In this document: one piece after another, positions 6,669 to 33,975 of the stretch | Numbering within the stretch: position 1 is the stretch's first letter | Layout of the letters: each line of letters begins with the position of its first letter | Assembly (NCBI GenBank): GCA_020853525.1 | Contig: JADYYS010000052.1 | Span: 1-34,539 of the forward strand | Direction of reading: 5' to 3' | DNA from: Ardenticatenales bacterium | Lineage (GTDB): Bacteria; Chloroflexota; Anaerolineae; Epilineales; Epilineaceae | Length of the DNA: 34,539 bases | Notes under the pieces: model-generated | Told to the model about the DNA's origin: nothing | Databases searched by the model: none | Seen by the model: only the letters and a program-made list of their open reading frames with translations | Translations under genes and position numbers: made by a program

Positions 6669-7310
6669 ATGTCCCGACCCGATAACCTTGAACGCGCCCT
6701 CGACGAGGACAACGTCGCCGCGACGCCCGTGGACCAGTTCGACCGGTGGTGGGCGGAGTGGCTTGCGGCGGCGTCGTCGGCGTCGTCGCAGTCGCCGGAC
6801 GTGTCGGCCGTGGCGCTGGCGACGGCAACGCCCGACGGCCGGCCCTCGGTGCGCATGGTCCTCCTCAAGGGGCACGATGCGGACGGCTTCGTGTTCTTCA
6901 CGAACACCGAGAGCCGCAAGGGGCGGGAGCTGGCGGCGAACGACCGGGCGGCGCTGTTGTTCCACTGGCCGGCGCTGGGCCGCCAGGTGCGCGCCGAAGG
7001 GCGGGTCGCACCGATCGACGCCGCGGCCAGCGACGCCTACTTCGCGACGCGGGCGCGCGACAGCCGGATCGGCACGTGGGCATCGCGACAGAGCACCGTC
7101 CTGGCGGATCGGGCGGCGCTCGTCGCCCGCGTCGCCGAGACCGAGGCGCGCTTCGCGGGCGCCGACGTGCCCCGACCGCCGCACTGGGGCGGCTACCGCC
7201 TGACGCCGGATGCGGTGGAGTTCTGGCAGGCGCGCCCCCACCGCCTGCACGATCGCCTTCGCTATCGGCCGCACGGCGCGGGCTGGACGATCGAGCGGCT
7301 GGCGCCGTGA
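6669..7310 (+). CDS. pdxH: pyridoxamine 5'-phosphate oxidase
   Basis: A 213-residue FMN-dependent flavoprotein that oxidises pyridoxamine/pyridoxine 5'-phosphate to pyridoxal 5'-phosphate, the last step of B6 synthesis and salvage. Recognised blocks: [28 protein letters not shown] (FMN-binding strand), [65 protein letters not shown], and C-terminal RLHDRLRY. These cover the whole family from N- to C-terminus at normal length. ATG at 6669 has only a weak purine-rich upstream stretch. It is separated from pgeF by 165 bp that hold a TATAAT and direct repeats, so it probably has its own promoter. Confidence 0.96.
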
Positions 7311-7483
7311 CCGGCCGGCCGCGTCCACCGTACGACGACGATGGCCCTTCGCGACAACCGCCGGCAGAGGCGCGGGGCGTCCGTGCGCCCGTCGGCGGTT
7401 CGTGTCCGCACCCCATCGGCGTGACAAGGTGCCGGCCTGCCGCGTTCACCCACCCGCACTTCCGACGCGCACGAGGATGTCCC

Positions 7484-8839
7484 ATGCCCCCCACCCGCAC
7501 CGGCGCGACGACCGTCGTCGTGCTCACCGCCGTCACCGCGCTCGCCGCCGTCCTCGCCGTGCCGACCACCCGGCGGACACCCGCCGCGATCGCGGCCGAC
7601 AAGGCCCAACCCGACGTCCGCCTCTCCGACCGCCTCTCCGACCGCCTCTCCGACCGCATCGCCCAGCTGGACCCGATCATCTCGCTGTCCGTCGTCGGCC
7701 GGCTCGACGGCCGCTGGCTCGGCCTCGACGTCCGGGGCGACCGCGTGTACGGCGTCGACGCGGAGCAGCGCCTGCTCGTCGTCAGCGTCGCCGATCCGTC
7801 CGCACCGGCCGTTGTCGGTCAGGTCGACCTGCCGACGCAGGCCGAGGATGTCGCCGTGACCGATGGGACGGCGGTGCTGGCGATGGGCTCGAGCGGCTTG
7901 TGCGTGAGCGCGCTGGGCGATGGGACGCGGCCGGCGGCACCGGTGTGCGTCGGCTCGGACGGCTATGCCCAGGACGTCGCGGCGGCCGGCGCGTTCGCCT
8001 TCGCGGCCAGCGGCTCGATCGGGCTGCAGGTGGCCAACGTCGCCGGCCCGGCCCGGCCGACGTGGGTGAACCGGATCACGTATCCCAACGACGACGCGTC
8101 CGGCGTCACCATCGCCGGCAACGTGCTGTTCGAGGCGAACGGCGCGAACGGCATGTACGCCTACGACCTGACCCGTCCCGAGGCGCCGAGCGCGTTCGGC
8201 TCGCTGCCGCTGTCGCAGCCGGCGCGCCACATGAGCGCCGCCGGCGACCTGGCCGTCGTCGGCCTCGGCGTGTTCGCGCCCACCGAGAGCGGCGGTGTCA
8301 CCGTCCTCGACGTCACGAACCCGCGCGCGCCGGCGATCAAGGGCACGGTGACCGGCCTGCGGTTCGTCCGCCGCACCGCCCTTTCCGGCCGCGACTACGC
8401 CCTCGCCGTCGACGGCCCCGGCGGCCTGCACGTCATCGACGTCCGCCGCCCGGACGCGCCGCGCACCGTGGCCGCGTACTTCGCCCCGGACGCGCGCGAC
8501 GTGGCCGCGTCGGGCGGCTCGGCCACCGGCGGCCTCGTGTTCATCGCCGACCGCCAGACCGGCCTCACGATCCTCCGCCTGACCGCCGCCACCCCAACCC
8601 CGACGGCCACGTTCACCCGCACGCCGACGCCCACATCGACGTCGACGCCCACCCCGACGCGCACGCCGACCGCCACGCCGACGCCGGTGCGCTACGGCCT
8701 GTGGCTGCCGCGCCTGCTGCGCGGCGATGCGGATGCGCCGACACCGACGCCGCTGCCGACCGTGGAGCCGACGCCCGTCGACAGCACCACCGCCCACCGG
8801 CGGACGACATCCGTCGACCAGCGTACACCGACCGTGTAG
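7484..8839 (+). CDS. secreted LVIVD-repeat protein with PT-rich C-terminus
   Basis: A 451-residue exported protein. ATG at 7484 has GAGGA 6 nt upstream and opens a signal peptide (TTVVVLTAVTALAAVLAV). Repeated strands such as YGVDAEQRLLVVSVADPSAPAVVGQVDLP, GVTVLDVTNPRAPAIKGTV and GLHVIDVRRPDAP are LVIVD repeats, a beta-propeller-like surface module of unknown function. Near the N-terminus a 12-bp unit (CGCCTCTCCGAC) is repeated three times at about 7619-7656 and encodes repeated LSDR. After the repeats comes a Pro/Thr linker, then YGLWLPRLLRG (residues 404-414), which resembles the aromatic-Leu-Pro-x-Leu-Leu-Arg segment often seen at the end of Chloroflexota secreted proteins. A second PT-rich tail follows. 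Probably cell-surface; ligand unknown. Confidence 0.85.
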   Translation: MPPTRTGATTVVVLTAVTALAAVLAVPTTRRTPAAIAADKAQPDVRLSDRLSDRLSDRIAQLDPIISLSVVGRLDGRWLGLDVRGDRVYGVDAEQRLLVVSVADPSAPAVVGQVDLPTQAEDVAVTDGTAVLAMGSSGLCVSALGDGTRPAAPVCVGSDGYAQDVAAAGAFAFAASGSIGLQVANVAGPARPTWVNRITYPNDDASGVTIAGNVLFEANGANGMYAYDLTRPEAPSAFGSLPLSQPARHMSAAGDLAVVGLGVFAPTESGGVTVLDVTNPRAPAIKGTVTGLRFVRRTALSGRDYALAVDGPGGLHVIDVRRPDAPRTVAAYFAPDARDVAASGGSATGGLVFIADRQTGLTILRLTAATPTPTATFTRTPTPTSTSTPTPTRTPTATPTPVRYGLWLPRLLRGDADAPTPTPLPTVEPTPVDSTTAHRRTTSVDQRTPTV

Positions 8840-28000: not shown

Positions 28001-29218
28001 ATGTTCTACCAACGCCTAGGCCACATCCCCCCCAAGCGCCACACCCAGTTCCGCCGCCCCGACGGCACCCTCTACCGCGAGGAGGTCATGGGCGTCGCCG
28101 GTTTCGCCGGCATCCAGAGCATCCTCTACCACCACCACCAGCCCACGCGCGTCCTGCGCGTCGCGGATCTGGGCGATGCGTCCGTGCGATACGCCGAATA
28201 CGGCGCCATCCGTCACCGCCAGTTCTCGACGGCCAACATCGCCCCCGGCGGGGACGGCGTCGCGGGCCGCACCGTCCTCATCGGCAACCAGGACATCACG
28301 ATGGCCATCGCCCGCCCGACGGAGTCGATGTCCTACTTCTACCGCAATGGCCAATCCTACGAGTGCCTCTTCGTCCACGAGGGCACCGGCACGCTGCGCT
28401 CCGTCTTCGGCTCCTTGCGCTTCGGGCCGGGCGACTACGTCGTCATCCCGTACTCGACGACCTACCAGCTGCACTACGACACGCCCGTGAACCGCCTCGT
28501 CGTCTTCGAATCGCGCGACCAGATCACGACGCCGCAACGCTACCGCAACTGGTACGGCCAGCTCCTCGAGCATTCCCCGTTCTGCGAGCGGGACTTCCGC
28601 GGACCCGACAGCCTCGAGACGTTCGACGAGTTCGGCGAGTTCGAGGTCCGCATCAAGGTCCGCGACCGCCTTTCGGCGAATTGGCTGGACCACCACCCAT
28701 TCGACGTGATCGGTTGGGACGGCTTCGTCTACCCGTTCGTGTTCAACATCGCCGACTTCGAGCCGATCACGGGCCGGGTCCACCAGCCGCCCCCCGTCCA
28801 TCAGACGTTCGAGGGCAGCGGCTACGTCATCTGCTCGTTCGTTCCGCGCCTGTTCGACTACCACCCCGACGCCATCCCGGCGCCCTACAACCACGCCAAC
28901 GTGAACTCGGACGAGGTCCTCTACTACGTCGACGGCGACTTCATGAGCCGCAAGGGCGTCGGGTTGTACGACATCACCCTCCACCCGTCGGGCCTGCCGC
29001 ACGGCCCGCACCCGGGCACGACGGAGGCTTCGATCGGCAGGGCGCGCACCGAGGAGACGGCGGTGATGATGGACACGTTCCACCCGCTGCACGTCACCGA
29101 GGCCGCGCTGGCGCTCGAGAACCCCGGCTACGCCACCAGCTGGCTGCCCGCCGTTCCGCACGGACCGACGGCCAACGGCGCGGCGCCGAAGGCGGTCGGC
29201 GAGGGCATCTCTGGATGA
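28001..29218 (+). CDS. hmgA: homogentisate 1,2-dioxygenase
   Basis: A 405-residue cupin-fold iron(II) ring-cleaving dioxygenase that opens homogentisate to maleylacetoacetate, the step after Hpd. Matches to the family: N-terminal YQRLGHIPPKRHTQFR, GSLRFGPGDYVVIPYSTTYQLHY, then NHANVNSDEVLYYVDGDF with candidate iron ligands His298 and Glu305, and LPHGPHPGTTEASIG near the C-terminus. This is the shorter bacterial type. ATG at 28001 has GGAGG 5 nt upstream within a tandem repeat. The stop overlaps the XRE gene start (ATGA). No fumarylacetoacetase or maleylacetoacetate isomerase gene is in the window. Confidence 0.95.
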   Translation: MFYQRLGHIPPKRHTQFRRPDGTLYREEVMGVAGFAGIQSILYHHHQPTRVLRVADLGDASVRYAEYGAIRHRQFSTANIAPGGDGVAGRTVLIGNQDITMAIARPTESMSYFYRNGQSYECLFVHEGTGTLRSVFGSLRFGPGDYVVIPYSTTYQLHYDTPVNRLVVFESRDQITTPQRYRNWYGQLLEHSPFCERDFRGPDSLETFDEFGEFEVRIKVRDRLSANWLDHHPFDVIGWDGFVYPFVFNIADFEPITGRVHQPPPVHQTFEGSGYVICSFVPRLFDYHPDAIPAPYNHANVNSDEVLYYVDGDFMSRKGVGLYDITLHPSGLPHGPHPGTTEASIGRARTEETAVMMDTFHPLHVTEAALALENPGYATSWLPAVPHGPTANGAAPKAVGEGISG

Positions 29219-29592
29219 GCAAGCTGGGCGATGAGATCGCGAAGGTTCTGTTCCGCAAGCGCCGCGGCTTCCGGTTCACCCAGGCCGACCTCGGCACGCG
29301 GATCGGCGTGTCCGGCAGCTACATCTCGAGCATCGAAGCCGGCAGGTCCAGCCCGCGGATCTCGGAACTCGAGGATCTGGCGACGCACTTCCGCACAACC
29401 GCCTTCGAGATGATCCAGGAAGCCTACCTGGCCGGCGAGCAGTACATCCCCGCCGTCAAGCTCGAAACCGGCGGCCCTAGCCTCGACGAACTCGCCGCCG
29501 AGCTCACCCCCGACCAGCGGGCCTTCGCCCGCGAGTTCCTCCTCTTCCTGCGCGAACGGGAGCGCGTGGACGCGGTGGAACGAGAGGGATAA
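29215..29592 (+). CDS. XRE-family helix-turn-helix regulator
   Basis: A 125-residue protein. The HTH occupies about residues 15-60: FRFTQADLGTRIGVSGSYISSIEAGRSSPRISELEDLA is the standard XRE/Cro-C1 five-helix domain. The C-terminal half (LTPDQRAFAREFLLFLRERERVDA) is helical and may dimerise; there is no recognised ligand domain. It is coupled to hmgA by an ATGA overlap, so it is a candidate regulator of the hpd/hmgA genes, acting perhaps through homogentisate levels. That is inference from position. Confidence 0.9.
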   Translation: MSKLGDEIAKVLFRKRRGFRFTQADLGTRIGVSGSYISSIEAGRSSPRISELEDLATHFRTTAFEMIQEAYLAGEQYIPAVKLETGGPSLDELAAELTPDQRAFAREFLLFLRERERVDAVEREG

Positions 29593-29714: not shown

Positions 29715-30926
29715 CTACCGCCGACCCCGCCGACCATGACCGCCCCAGTCGCTGAACGACCACGGGTTGCGGCGCAGTCGGACCTCGATCCCGTCCGTTT
29801 CGCGGGCCGGTTCGACGGTGATCGGCTCGGCCTGCTTCACGTTGAGCGTGTCCTTGTACCAGACACGCCATACCCACGGCGCAAGCTCGCCCACGGCCAG
29901 CTTGTAGCGGCCGGGGGCCAGCTCGTTGAGCACGAACGTGCCGTCCAACTGGGTGCGTAGGCTGACGCGGGAGCCCCAGCGCGTCTCCCCGTCTTCACGG
30001 AGCGGGTAGACCGAGACCATCGCGCCCGGCAGTCCGGAGCCCTCCTGGCCTATGACGATCCCGCTGATTCCGCCCGGGGCGCCGGGCAGAGCGGCCGTGG
30101 CGGCCACTACCGGAGGCGCGGCAGGCGGCGGTGTGTCGGTCCCCGCCGCGGCCGGCGTCTGGCTGCGGCGCGCCGTCGCCGTGGGCTGTGCGGTTTCACC
30201 GGCGGCGGCCGTCCCGGCTTGGCCGGCACGGAGCGTCGCCGCGGCATCGTCCGCCGCCGGCGGTGCAGCCTGCGTCCCGCCGTCTCCGACGACGACGACG
30301 CCCGGGTTGGGCAGCGAGCGGCGGCCCGCGGCAACCGGCGGGCCGGTCTGGGCGTCAGCGGCGGGCGGGGTGTTGCGCGCCCGCGTGGGGCGGTCGTGCG
30401 GCTCGATCACCGTCGAACCCGGCGCGAGCGCAGCGGTCGGTTCGGGCGTGGCAGAGGCCGGTTCATCGGGCACGGTTCGGATTGTCAGATAGTCGATCGC
30501 CCGCCCGATCGGCGGTGCCACGCGGTCCGCCGCGTCGTGGATCCGCTCGACGCCGCGGCGGATCGGATAGAGCACATCGCCCGGCCGGCTGTCCGCCGAG
30601 GCGACGGCCAGACCCGAGAACGCGACGACCCCGGCAGCCACCGCGGCAGCGGCCCGCAGCGCCCAGACGCGGGCCGACAGGCGTGGACGAAGGACGAGCG
30701 GTGTGCGGTCGAGCGGCGGCAGGGCGCTCAGGTGATGCTGCAACGACGCACGGAAGGCCGTCGACGGCGCCGGACGGTGCGTCCGCACGACCATGGCCGC
30801 TCGGATCAGCGCCTTGAGCTCGTCGGCCTGGTCCGGGTGATCTGCCAGTACGACCGGCAGCGCCTCGCCCGCCTCGATGCGGCTCAGGCAGCTCGCGAGG
30901 GCGTCGGCGATGGACGGCGGCGCCAT
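29715..30926 (-). CDS. probable anti-sigma-type membrane protein with extracytoplasmic beta-sandwich
   Basis: A 403-residue protein. The N-terminal cytoplasmic part (DALASCLSRIEAGEALPVVLADHPDQADELKALIRAA) resembles the N-termini of Chloroflexota/actinobacterial anti-sigma-type proteins. One membrane helix follows (about 88-110, ALRAAAAVAAGVVAFSGLAV), and then GDVLYPIRRGVERIHDA, which resembles DUF5667. After ~130 residues of Ala/Pro/Thr-rich linker comes a carboxypeptidase-regulatory-like domain (about 286-375; GISGIVIGQEGSGLPGAMVSVYP, LDGTFVLNELAPGRYKLAVGE). I chose ATG at 30926, which shares one base with the sigma stop (TGATG). Pairing with the ECF gene suggests it holds the sigma factor at the membrane until an external signal arrives. 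Not proven. Confidence 0.8.
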   Translation of the reverse strand: MAPPSIADALASCLSRIEAGEALPVVLADHPDQADELKALIRAAMVVRTHRPAPSTAFRASLQHHLSALPPLDRTPLVLRPRLSARVWALRAAAAVAAGVVAFSGLAVASADSRPGDVLYPIRRGVERIHDAADRVAPPIGRAIDYLTIRTVPDEPASATPEPTAALAPGSTVIEPHDRPTRARNTPPAADAQTGPPVAAGRRSLPNPGVVVVGDGGTQAAPPAADDAAATLRAGQAGTAAAGETAQPTATARRSQTPAAAGTDTPPPAAPPVVAATAALPGAPGGISGIVIGQEGSGLPGAMVSVYPLREDGETRWGSRVSLRTQLDGTFVLNELAPGRYKLAVGELAPWVWRVWYKDTLNVKQAEPITVEPARETDGIEVRLRRNPWSFSDWGGHGRRGRR

Positions 30927-31564
30927 CACAGGGCACGCTCGCTCGGCAAGTGGCGCCGCAGGTTGGCCAGCGCGTTGTGCTGCAGGTTCTTCACGGCGTT
31001 CTGGGTTCGCTGGAGCATGTCGGCCGTCTCGGCCAGGCTGAGGCCCGCACCGAAGCGCAGCGCGATGACCTGACGCTGCAGGTCCGTCAGTCGCTCCATC
31101 GCCCGGCTGAGATCGGCCGATCCGAGCCCGAGGCTCGCGTCGTCGCTCGGGGGTTCGGCGTCGGCAAACTCCGGTCGCGGGTCGTCCGGATCGTCGCCGC
31201 TCGGCAGCGAGACCTGCTCGGGCCGCCGACCCTGCGTGCGCCAGTGGTTGGCGATGCGGTTGTGCGCGATCCGCATGAGCCACGGCGCCAGGCTGCCCTG
31301 CCACTGGAATCCGGCCAAGCTTCGCCAGGCGCTGACGAAGACGTCCTGCGTCAGGTCGTCCGCCAGCGCGGAGTCACGGACGCGCAGCGCGATGTAGGCG
31401 TACACCGCGTCGACATGACGTTGGTACAGCTGGCCGAAGGCCTGACGGTCCCCGGCCTGGCCGCGCACGACGAGCGCGCGCTCGCCGCTCGCGTCGTCAC
31501 CGAAGGCGGCGGCGTCGCGCGCCGTCGACTCCGGGCGCGCGTCGGCCCGCTCGGAGCCGGTCAT
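30926..31564 (-). CDS. ECF (RpoE-like) RNA polymerase sigma factor
   Basis: A 212-residue sigma-70-family factor with only regions 2 and 4. Region 2: FGQLYQRHVDAVYAYIALRVRDSALADDLTQDVFVSAWRSL, then FQWQGSLAPWLMRIAHNRIANHWR. An acidic linker (GDDPDDPRPEFADAEPPSDD) leads to region 4: MERLTDLQRQVIALRFGAGLSLAETADMLQRTQNAVKNLQHNALANLRR. ATG at 31564 is used; an ATG at 31606 would add 14 residues and lacks a ribosome binding site. It is coupled to the membrane protein downstream. The upstream LVIVD gene, 95 bp away in the same direction, may be co-transcribed. Confidence 0.93.
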   Translation of the reverse strand: MTGSERADARPESTARDAAAFGDDASGERALVVRGQAGDRQAFGQLYQRHVDAVYAYIALRVRDSALADDLTQDVFVSAWRSLAGFQWQGSLAPWLMRIAHNRIANHWRTQGRRPEQVSLPSGDDPDDPRPEFADAEPPSDDASLGLGSADLSRAMERLTDLQRQVIALRFGAGLSLAETADMLQRTQNAVKNLQHNALANLRRHLPSERAL

Positions 31565-31659
31565 GCCCCTGCTTCCCAACACGGCGGTGCAGCCGAACGC
31601 AGACATAACTGATCAAACACCGCTAGCCGCCGACGGGTTAGTCGAACTGTCGCGAACAC

Positions 31660-33774
31660 TTAGGATCCGTCGGCCGGGGGCACGTCGGACCGCTGCCGCC
31701 GCCTGCGCGCGGCGCGCCCGACGGCGACGGCCGCGAGCGCGATCGCCAAGCCGCCGAGGACCGCCCCGCCGGTTCGCCACCGGCCGGGTGACCGCTCGGG
31801 CGCCTCCTGGACGATGCCGGAGTTGCCGTCCGGCGCCGGCGTCGATGGGGCGTCGGCGAGCGGTCCGCGCTCCGAGACGACCGTCCCCGGCGGCGGGATC
31901 GTCCCGAGCTCGAACGCCAGGACGCCCTCGTTGCCGGCCGCGGCAATGAGACGATCCTCACTCCACGTCAGCGACGACACGGCGGTCGACAGATCGTGCA
32001 GGCCGACGAAGCGGGGCTTGGCCGGGTCGGCAACGTCGAAGACGGCGATCCCGCGCGAGCGCCCGCCGGCGAACACGAGGCCGTCGCGCACCGTGAGGAC
32101 GGTGGGCACGAAGCGCGTGTTCAGGATGCCGACGACCGCCGGCGCAGTGCGGTCGCGGACATCGACCACGTACAGCCCTCCTTCGTCGGCGGCCACGACC
32201 ACGGTGTCCGGATCCAGAAACGCCACGTCGCGGGCCTCGGCCTGATCCGTGCCGAGTTCAACCCGGCCGACGACCGGCCACGCGCTCTCGGGGCGCGCGG
32301 CATAGACGATGAGACCGTTCTCGCGGTCCGCCACGAAGACGTGCGCGGCATCGGCGGTCAGGCCCCACATGAAGGCGGTGGTCGGGGTGCGCAGCCGGCG
32401 CTGCGGCTGGGCAGGGTCCGTCAGATCCCATGTGGCCAGGCCCTGCGTACCGCCCGTCGTGATCAGGGTTCGGGAATCCAGCAGGAGCACGTCACGCACC
32501 TGGGCCTCCAGGTGCACGAGCGGCTGCGGCGCACGCGGATCGGCCACGTCGAACAGGTCGAGTCCCGTCCGCACGTCGCCCACCGCCAGCCGGTCGTCCG
32601 CGACATCCACATAGACGTCCTGGGAAGCCGGCGGAAGCGGGGCCGACGCCACCTCGCGCATCGTGACCACGTCGATCACCGACACGCGGTCGTGGGCGAA
32701 CCCGACGAAGGCGTTGCCGCCGGCCTGGGCCAGTCCGAACGGAAACCCCGCCACGTCCGACACCTTGCCGATCGGCGGCGCATCCGCGGTCGCGACGTCG
32801 TACAGCGTCAACCCGGCCAGCCAGTCGACCACGAACAGCCGTGTCCCGACGCTCCGCATCCGCACGACGTCATTGAGCGTCGGCAGCGTCCGCAGCTGCG
32901 TCGGCGCAGCCGGCGTCGTGAAGTCGTACACACCCACGCCCTGCGTTCCGTGGCCCACGTAGAGCGTGCTCCCGACGACGGCGACCGTGCGGATGACCGT
33001 GCCATTCTGGACCGTGCCGACGAGCTTGGGCTCGCGCGGGTTCGCGACATCGTAGATCCCGAGCGCCGAACCCGCGGCCATGAGCGCCGTGGTACCGGCC
33101 ACCACGATGCTCTCCGCCTTGCCGTTCGGCGGAAGCTCCGCTTGTCCCAGATAGCGCGGGTCGGTGGGCGTCGAGATGTCGATGATCCCGAGGCCTTCGG
33201 TGGCGTAGGCCGCATAGACCAGATCGTCCTGTACGGCCAGGTAGGTCACGGCGCGGCGCGTATGCTCGACCGCCAGCGGTGCAGCGGGCACGTCGTCGCC
33301 CGTCACATCGTAGATCGCGACCCCCTCGCCGAACTCGGCGGTGACCAACCGCCCATCGTGCAGGACCATCTCCCGCACCTCATGGGTCACCGGGATGACC
33401 CCGACCTCGGTGGGCGCGGCAGGATCGGCGATGCTGAAGACGTGGATGCCCCGGCCCTCCGGTGCCACGAACAGGCGCGTCCCATCGAGCAGGAGCGCGC
33501 GCACCGTGGCGGGCAGGATGGGGGTGCGGCCGACCACCGTGGACGTACCGTCGGCGGCGACGTCGAGCACATATGCCCGCCGGCCGGCGCCCAAAACCGC
33601 GCGCGACGCTCCATCCGACGCCACGGCGTAGCTGACGCCGGCGGTCTGATCGACCAGCGTCAGCACCCCGGCGCTGGGCGCCTGTGCCTGCACCGCACCG
33701 GGCACGCCCGAACAGGCAAGCATGGCCGCGAGCACGGCGGCCAGTGCTGGCCGAAGGACGGAACGACAGAGCAT
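31660..33774 (-). CDS. LVIVD-repeat beta-propeller surface protein with C-terminal membrane anchor
   Basis: A 704-residue protein. The signal peptide is residues 1-30 (RPALAAVLAAMLACSGVPGAVQA). About a dozen LVIVD repeats follow, each ~45 residues with a D-[IV]-x-[DN]-P-x-x-P-turn (IHVFSIADPAAPTEVGVIPV, LGIIDISTPTDPRYLGQAEL, GVYDFTTPAAPTQLRTL, GLYVVDVRDRTAPAVVGIL). Then comes a Pro-rich stretch and a C-terminal helix (about 668-686, GGAVLGGLAIALAAVAVG) with a strongly basic tail (RAARRRRQR), typical of a type I stop-transfer anchor. The propeller thus faces outside. The same repeat family occurs in the protein at 7484-8839, which lacks this anchor. Position before the sigma/anti-sigma pair makes it a candidate input or output of that pair. 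Confidence 0.88.
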   Translation of the reverse strand: MLCRSVLRPALAAVLAAMLACSGVPGAVQAQAPSAGVLTLVDQTAGVSYAVASDGASRAVLGAGRRAYVLDVAADGTSTVVGRTPILPATVRALLLDGTRLFVAPEGRGIHVFSIADPAAPTEVGVIPVTHEVREMVLHDGRLVTAEFGEGVAIYDVTGDDVPAAPLAVEHTRRAVTYLAVQDDLVYAAYATEGLGIIDISTPTDPRYLGQAELPPNGKAESIVVAGTTALMAAGSALGIYDVANPREPKLVGTVQNGTVIRTVAVVGSTLYVGHGTQGVGVYDFTTPAAPTQLRTLPTLNDVVRMRSVGTRLFVVDWLAGLTLYDVATADAPPIGKVSDVAGFPFGLAQAGGNAFVGFAHDRVSVIDVVTMREVASAPLPPASQDVYVDVADDRLAVGDVRTGLDLFDVADPRAPQPLVHLEAQVRDVLLLDSRTLITTGGTQGLATWDLTDPAQPQRRLRTPTTAFMWGLTADAAHVFVADRENGLIVYAARPESAWPVVGRVELGTDQAEARDVAFLDPDTVVVAADEGGLYVVDVRDRTAPAVVGILNTRFVPTVLTVRDGLVFAGGRSRGIAVFDVADPAKPRFVGLHDLSTAVSSLTWSEDRLIAAAGNEGVLAFELGTIPPPGTVVSERGPLADAPSTPAPDGNSGIVQEAPERSPGRWRTGGAVLGGLAIALAAVAVGRAARRRRQRSDVPPADGS

Positions 33775-33833: not shown

Positions 33834-33868
33834 AGTTTAGCATCATGATTGCTTCGCATCATGATTGC
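33834..33868 (-). promoter_or_regulatory. putative promoter and tandem operator of the LVIVD gene
   Basis: GCATCATGATTGC occurs at 33840-33852 and 33856-33868, a perfect 13-mer with a 16-bp period; each contains the palindrome ATCATGAT. On the minus strand TAAACT (33839-33834) is a -10-like hexamer beside the repeats, about 60 nt from the ATG. No -35 hexamer is seen, so the repeats could be an activator or ECF-type recognition site. Confidence 0.45.
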
Positions 33869-33936: not shown

Positions 33937-33975
33937 AAAAAGCAGCCGCCCCCGGGGAATCCCCGGGGGCGGCTG
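33937..33975 (-). terminator. intrinsic terminator of the gene at the right edge
   Basis: CAGCCGCCCCCGGGG (33943-33957), loop AAT, CCCCGGGGGCGGCTG (33961-33975): a perfect 15-bp stem. Read on the minus strand it is followed by TTTTT (33941-33937). It lies about 50 nt past the stop of the gene at 34026. This is the only hairpin plus T-run in the window that I would call a clear terminator. Confidence 0.85.

Follow-up and report, generated by a model that had tools for sequence, protein, structure and literature searches.

The anti-sigma factor RsbN, the partner of sigma-BldN in Streptomyces, is anchored in the membrane, according to PMC8103513. That article and PMC7406223, which swaps the two names, also present RsbN as the founder of the class III anti-sigma factors. 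In Thermoanaerobacter tengcongensis, the gene of the anti-sigma factor Tt-TolB lies right after that of the sigma factor Tt-RpoE1; the N-terminus of Tt-TolB binds the sigma factor, and its large C-terminal part is annotated as TolB (PMC3397946). In the SigI/RsgI systems of Clostridium thermocellum, several anti-sigma factors respond to different substrates and pass the signal across the membrane (PMC12203970). Outer domains on anti-sigma factors are thus already known. Here, I analyzed a 34,539-nucleotide stretch (the window; contig JADYYS010000052.1 of assembly GCA_020853525.1, positions 1 to 34,539) of an Ardenticatenales bacterium belonging to the Epilineaceae family in the Anaerolineae class of Chloroflexota. 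As a sequence-only reading of this DNA had described, three genes lie on the minus strand and are present as open reading frames in the following order of transcription: a gene for an LVIVD-repeat double beta-propeller protein (704 residues; 31660..33774), one for an extracytoplasmic function (ECF) sigma factor (226 residues; 30926..31606), and one for an anti-sigma-like single-pass membrane protein (403 residues; 29715..30926), the last overlapping the sigma stop codon. It was found that the sigma/anti-sigma pair is spread across the class, and that the propeller recurs, once as a fusion, in one clade of the sigma tree.

How does this locus compare with the described systems? TolB is a propeller, and the sigma type and the domains of SigI/RsgI differ from those of the window. 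Tt-TolB differs from the window in being a single protein with an N-terminus of 39 residues, and LVIVD is not mentioned in the available text on it (PMC3397946). Sigma-BldN/RsbN shares with the window the membrane-anchored anti-sigma protein (PMC8103513), while the window differs in its large ectodomain and its propeller partner. The window sigma factor matches Pfam Sigma70_r2 (4e-17) and Sigma70_r4 (7.4e-14), and it belongs to the ECF sigma factors with 96.2 bits against the TIGR02937 cut-off of 42.9. It is called BldN-like here, and not BldN, because its score with the BldN family TIGR02952 (1.4e-37, 129.2 bits) lies below the curated cut-off of 206.45. In the PDB profile search, its closest solved chain is 6dxo_A (2.9e-27; the next chain has 1.7e-15), which I take to be the Streptomyces sigma-BldN with RsbN. 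Since 6dxo_A is the closest solved sigma factor, the window pair may work like sigma-BldN/RsbN; this is an analogy in working and not a class III membership, and the sequence and fold searches gave no connection between the window domain and RsbN. A contig scan with the sigma factor returned at least 80 loci of at most 39% identity, mostly from Hymenobacter, and was set aside and not used. The literature searches made here gave no match for an LVIVD propeller as an anti-sigma neighbour and fusion together with CarboxypepD_reg, for DUF5667, or for an anti-sigma factor with an extracellular carboxypeptidase regulatory-like domain.

Is the pair common in the class? Relatives of the N-terminal domain of the anti-sigma-like protein were first found using the window protein alone. 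A profile of this domain (A1) was then made from the window protein as the first row and 17 of the 23 other aligned fragments (L049, L051, L057, C26a, C26b, and C33 were left out). A1 matches 125 of the 150 class genomes, among them that of the window; of the 102 genomes with a completeness of 90% or more and a contamination of 5% or less, it matches 84. The score of the window protein itself (1.1e-34) is not independent, since the window is the first row. I then inspected 60 regions from 57 genomes, taken as the strong matches and the nearest lineages among the matches listed (16 A1 seeds and 44 others; 3.5 to 13.9 kb in length, median 11.7 kb, with 13 under 8 kb; contig ends truncate 9 of the 60 proteins). 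In each of the 60 regions, the gene immediately upstream is a sigma gene in the same orientation. The two genes overlap in 51 of them, in 32 cases by 4 nucleotides, when the starts nearest the sigma end are chosen. DUF5667 was found in 58 and DUF5666 in 36 of the 60 relatives. CarboxypepD_reg was found in none of the 60 at 1e-3, which rules it out as the class-wide ectodomain. By the N-terminal profile (which includes the window) and by its adjacency to an ECF gene, the window protein belongs to the ECF-linked DUF5667 membrane family. It shares with the DUF5667 proteins of the class the N-terminal domain, the transmembrane helix, and the PGD-LYP segment, while it differs in having no DUF5667 score and in having a CarboxypepD_reg-like domain. 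Since A1 occurs in 125 of 150 genomes, with the sigma gene upstream in every region and DUF5667 in 58 of 60 relatives, the sigma factor and its membrane protein are an ordinary class-wide system and not a new one. The statement of the sequence-only reading that no standard description exists therefore does not hold for the pair, a system of the DUF5667 type whose sigma factor is BldN-like.

The propeller has a different distribution. In the sigma tree, for which 55 of the 85 sigma rows were used, the window falls in a clade of seven rows, all from the window's own family, f1 (99/90). Within it, the window groups with G001:C341 (100/89), G001:C112 groups with G000:C69 and G002:C120 (99/95), and G001:C103 groups with G000:C26b. 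In G001:C112, the sigma gene is followed by an anti-sigma-like protein and then by a secreted LVIVD protein, the last being cut by the contig end. This anti-sigma-like protein has A1 at its N-terminus (1.9e-8) and a CarboxypepD_reg match over the cut-off (2.3e-8), and the propeller scores 27.6 bits with LVIVD against a cut-off of 20.2. In G000:C69, which is from the window's own genome, the sigma gene overlaps by 4 nucleotides with the gene of a 1444-residue protein that has a transmembrane helix, a CarboxypepD_reg match (3.7e-6; 27.6 bits, below the cut-off), an LVIVD match (3.3e-5; 23.6 bits, over the cut-off), and a vWA-like end. An alignment of the C112 and C69 propellers spans 560 columns (30%, E 1e-22), and the vWA-like end of the C69 protein matches a separate vWA protein encoded upstream of the C112 sigma gene (1.8e-7). 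Since the C112 propeller and the upstream vWA protein match regions of the fused C69 protein, the two loci, judged by sequence, contain shared parts that were fused in the one or split in the other. The fused protein was taken as the anti-sigma counterpart by its position, membrane helix, and outer domains, its N-terminal resemblance being seen by eye only. Elsewhere in G000:C26 and G001:C103 (L075:6321-13449 and L072:4846-14819), two sigma/anti-sigma-like pairs stand in tandem; they precede a protein that has no Pfam match and is 43% identical between the two genomes, and they adjoin a ClpC-like gene (ClpC by eye).

A tentative preference, a little short of even probability, is given to the following reading: the locus encodes an envelope-sensing ECF switch with its anti-sigma factor, and the propeller in the same unit is the extracytoplasmic partner and part of the sensor. 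The propeller is favoured as the partner because of its recurrence in the clade and its fusion in C69, since natural fusions mark partners. From the family linkage and the topology, the N-terminal helical domain would hold the sigma factor at the membrane. An outer signal would act on the linker and the CarboxypepD_reg-like domain of the anti-sigma factor, and the sigma factor would be released, probably via regulated proteolysis as in other anti-sigma factors. The double propeller, anchored in the membrane, would bind a surface ligand or the anti-sigma ectodomain and in this way take part in sensing; it may also be produced under the control of the sigma factor. An envelope-sensing pathway involving the propeller had been proposed from the sequence; the type of the pair, by its 60/60 linkage and topology, and the recurrence in G001:C112 and G000:C69 are in line with it, while the mechanism would be as sketched here. 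A wider form of the idea is somewhat more doubtful: propeller and vWA-like surface modules may be detachable ectodomains of ECF anti-sigma factors; the propeller would then recognize a surface ligand, and a BldN-like sigma factor would receive the signal via the membrane helix. Such modules are encoded beside the anti-sigma gene in the window and G001:C112 and are built into the post-sigma protein in G000:C69.

Alternatively, the propeller may be an output, that is, a surface protein encoded by the first gene of the unit and switched on by the sigma factor without a sensing role. The structure of the unit bears on this. An intrinsic-terminator-like site of the preceding gene (33943..33975, minus strand; a 15-bp stem with a T-run) marks the start boundary, and the scan showed no terminator between the three genes. 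It gave 2 sites against 1.6 in shuffled sequences, and the claim rests on the strength of the stem and not on the count. Because of the site before the LVIVD gene and the lack of any between the genes, the three genes look like one transcription unit. It ends at a convergent helix-turn-helix gene (29215-29592, plus strand; Pfam HTH_31, 3.6e-10). The anti-sigma gene starts at ATG 30926 (TGATG, a 1-nucleotide overlap with the sigma gene) or at GTG 30929 (GTGA, a 4-nucleotide overlap), either of which replaces the GTG of the long open reading frame, and the sigma gene may start at ATG 31563 instead of 31606. The LVIVD gene thus seems to begin its own unit behind a terminator and upstream of the sigma gene, as expected for an output, and the sister locus G001:C341 has a different secreted protein in the LVIVD slot. 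On the other hand, the propeller is fused into the post-sigma membrane protein in G000:C69. Moreover, the sequence-only reading had suggested looking for the promoter motif upstream of 33774 elsewhere too, and no motif shared by 33774 and the sigma start was found beyond chance: the best two-block match has 12 of 13 positions and is ascribed to chance because 6 of 60 shuffles reach the same score, although the shuffles tried fewer spacers. A scan for sigma-70 promoters found none. The output explanation by itself seems rather unlikely, and a role as a product is in any case compatible with one in sensing. Upstream of the LVIVD gene, a near-palindromic direct repeat, GCATCATGATTGC, occurs twice with a 16-bp period (33840..33868, plus strand) and is a possible operator; it has three exact copies in the genome, the sole one outside this site being at C42:218.

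Several observations weigh against a sensing role and leave room for a chance neighbourhood, in which an ordinary sigma/anti-sigma pair would have come to lie behind an LVIVD gene that has nothing to do with it. In the nearest sister locus, G001:C341, the propeller is missing and its slot is occupied by a secreted protein with five CarboxypepD_reg domains (2e-41); the membrane protein of this locus, whose start is uncertain, has A1 (2.5e-9) and shows 46% identity to that of the window along 48 residues at the membrane. The LVIVD score of C112 is a sum, with no single repeat passing 0.1, and A1 does not match the N-terminus of the C69 protein at 1e-4. The propellers of the window and C69 resemble each other only remotely (27-28% over about 211 residues), so that the LVIVD gene of the window may be an independent arrival. 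LVIVD-like genes number 13 and sigma genes 30 in the genome of the window, which gives 0.46 neighbours within 2.5 kb by chance, so that the adjacency in the window alone is not significant; the 30 comprise 28 among the matches listed (33 matches in the genome, some of the primary-sigma type) and 2 others. Another LVIVD gene near an ECF gene, in G000:C11, was judged coincidental and rejected as a further case, its sigma gene preceding an HxxxCxxC protein (by eye). What speaks against chance is that a propeller reappears within this sigma clade, both in a different genus and in fused form. A propeller is present in 3 of the 6 clade loci with visible flanks and in none of the 60 regions (p 0.0004, kinship ignored); G002:C120, whose contig ends just after the sigma gene, was excluded and would make it 3 of 7. 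Compared with 10 other family-f1 loci, none of which has a propeller, the value is p 0.036, again with kinship ignored. The three f1 genomes have 26 A1 matches, of which a part was covered, and one of the 10 loci, G002:C464, is also among the 60 regions. The absence from the 60 regions was seen with a window-repeat profile and by phmmer with the window, C69, C112, and C11 propellers, but the profile missed the Pfam-scored C69 propeller and may thus miss divergent ones. Taken together, a chance neighbourhood is improbable. The link of the propeller is specific to a lineage and not general to the pair. As to the conserved trio of the sequence-only reading, one separate-gene case and one fusion exist in the sigma clade, but the finding that it had named as speaking against itself, a trio that is not conserved, was largely obtained: there is no propeller in the 60 regions or in G001:C341, and no LVIVD orthologue at 1e-40 in the other 149 class genomes.

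The anti-sigma-like protein was modeled over residues 1-140 with AlphaFold2 (AF2; 18 rows), giving a mean predicted local distance difference test score (pLDDT) of 84.4. Helices were predicted at residues 6-18, 23-27, 31-50, 56-68, 85-110 (membrane), and 120-136. The putative cytoplasmic anti-sigma-like domain consists of the four helices of residues 6-68 (30723..30911, minus strand, as for the features below), with pLDDT blocks of 80-97 over residues 1-70, and the transmembrane helix of residues 85-110 (30597..30674) is also seen in the hydropathy. By the alignment, the A1 profile, and the sigma linkage, the N-terminus falls in the ECF-linked family. The cytoplasmic anti-sigma-like end that had been predicted is supported to this extent, although no Pfam anti-sigma domain was found in the protein. 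The zinc anti-sigma (class I) motif HxxxCxxC is absent from its sequence as read directly. Two null results for the domain also weigh against the preferred sensing reading: the PDB profile search gave 2 rows with a best E of 1.5 and no real match, and Foldseek gave 7 rows with a best E of 5.4 and no confident fold. In the VIA fold comparison, Z is at most 3.4, with RslA (3hug_C) at 2.5 and RsbN absent from the matches listed. It is nevertheless very improbable that this is a surface protein merely co-transcribed with the sigma gene, as the lack of a Pfam anti-sigma domain and of a PDB match might suggest, against a conserved N-terminal helical domain right after an ECF sigma gene in 60 of 60 regions, a single transmembrane helix, and the occurrence of this domain in tandem in some relatives. 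After the membrane, a short DUF5667-like segment, RPGDVLYPIRR, aligns with the relatives (30519..30593). DUF5667 scores at E of at most 1 in 15 of the 18 A1 rows, while the window protein has only the motif RPGDVLYP and no Pfam match, and DUF5667 was thus rejected as one of its domains. The ectodomain is rich in Pro, Ala, and Thr and has a CarboxypepD_reg-like beta-sandwich at residues 287-345 (29892..30068). This external domain had been proposed from the sequence; Pfam finds it at 1.5e-6, but its 28.9 bits lie below the cut-off of 32.3.

The LVIVD protein is a member of the LVIVD propellers by Pfam (1.6e-13, 50.2 bits against a cut-off of 20.2), while its choice_anch_B score (5.8e-9, 35.7 bits) is under the cut-off of 100. 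The AF2 model (8 rows; mean pLDDT 72.8; predicted template modelling score 0.69) has 52 strands in blocks of about 36-360 and 386-625, which is consistent with two propellers. Foldseek matched 1864 PDB chains to the model at E of at most 0.001, and tandem WD40 proteins are among the 50 listed. The propeller region (residues about 36-625) corresponds to 31900..33669 on the minus strand. A signal peptide is seen by eye at about residues 1-31. The C-terminal membrane anchor (residues 671-693; 31696..31764, minus strand) has a hydropathy of 1.96 at residues 671-689, is a lone helix within a low-confidence stretch of the model, and is followed by an Arg-rich tail. The surface propeller with a C-terminal anchor of the earlier reading is thus borne out, with low confidence for the helix. 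The protein has the LVIVD repeats in common with the LVIVD/choice-of-anchor B proteins and differs from them in its C-terminal transmembrane anchor and in the gene adjoining an ECF system. LVIVD propellers are common in the class, with matches at 1e-10 in 52 of the 150 genomes. The window itself has another LVIVD-like frame (6692-8836, plus strand; 715 residues; 1.5e-15 with the window-repeat profile), which lies 23 kb from the nearest sigma gene among the matches listed.

In some membrane proteins whose genes follow an ECF sigma gene, the anti-sigma-like N-terminal domain is repeated in tandem. Six A1 matches each were found in L228:495-2987 (G005:C353) and L231:2-1612 (G006:C187), four in L086 (G005:C534), and two each in L083, L085, L087, and L089 (L089 below 0.01); copies were seen by eye in L081 and L082. 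Such proteins could hold several sigma molecules or different sigma factors, which is possibly more novel than the trio. The window's own genome has another ECF-linked protein of 1036 residues with a FecR domain (L104:6574-9684; 1.2e-13). Finally, a C-terminal motif of the type [hydrophobic][Y/F/C][L/M]P was found in 19 of the 861 closed frames of at least 350 residues against 1.65 expected, the motif having been chosen after seeing examples, L026 and L042 being one protein, and some frames possibly not being genes. It lies within the last 25 residues in L026, L097, L099, L101, L105, L073, L076, L079, L211, and others, and is a possible sorting or anchoring signal.

To my knowledge, LVIVD propellers have no assigned role. 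The natural fusion of an LVIVD propeller with a post-sigma membrane protein gives these propellers a testable role, namely cell-surface sensing. In this one lineage, a sigma switch found throughout the class would have been refitted with new outer domains.

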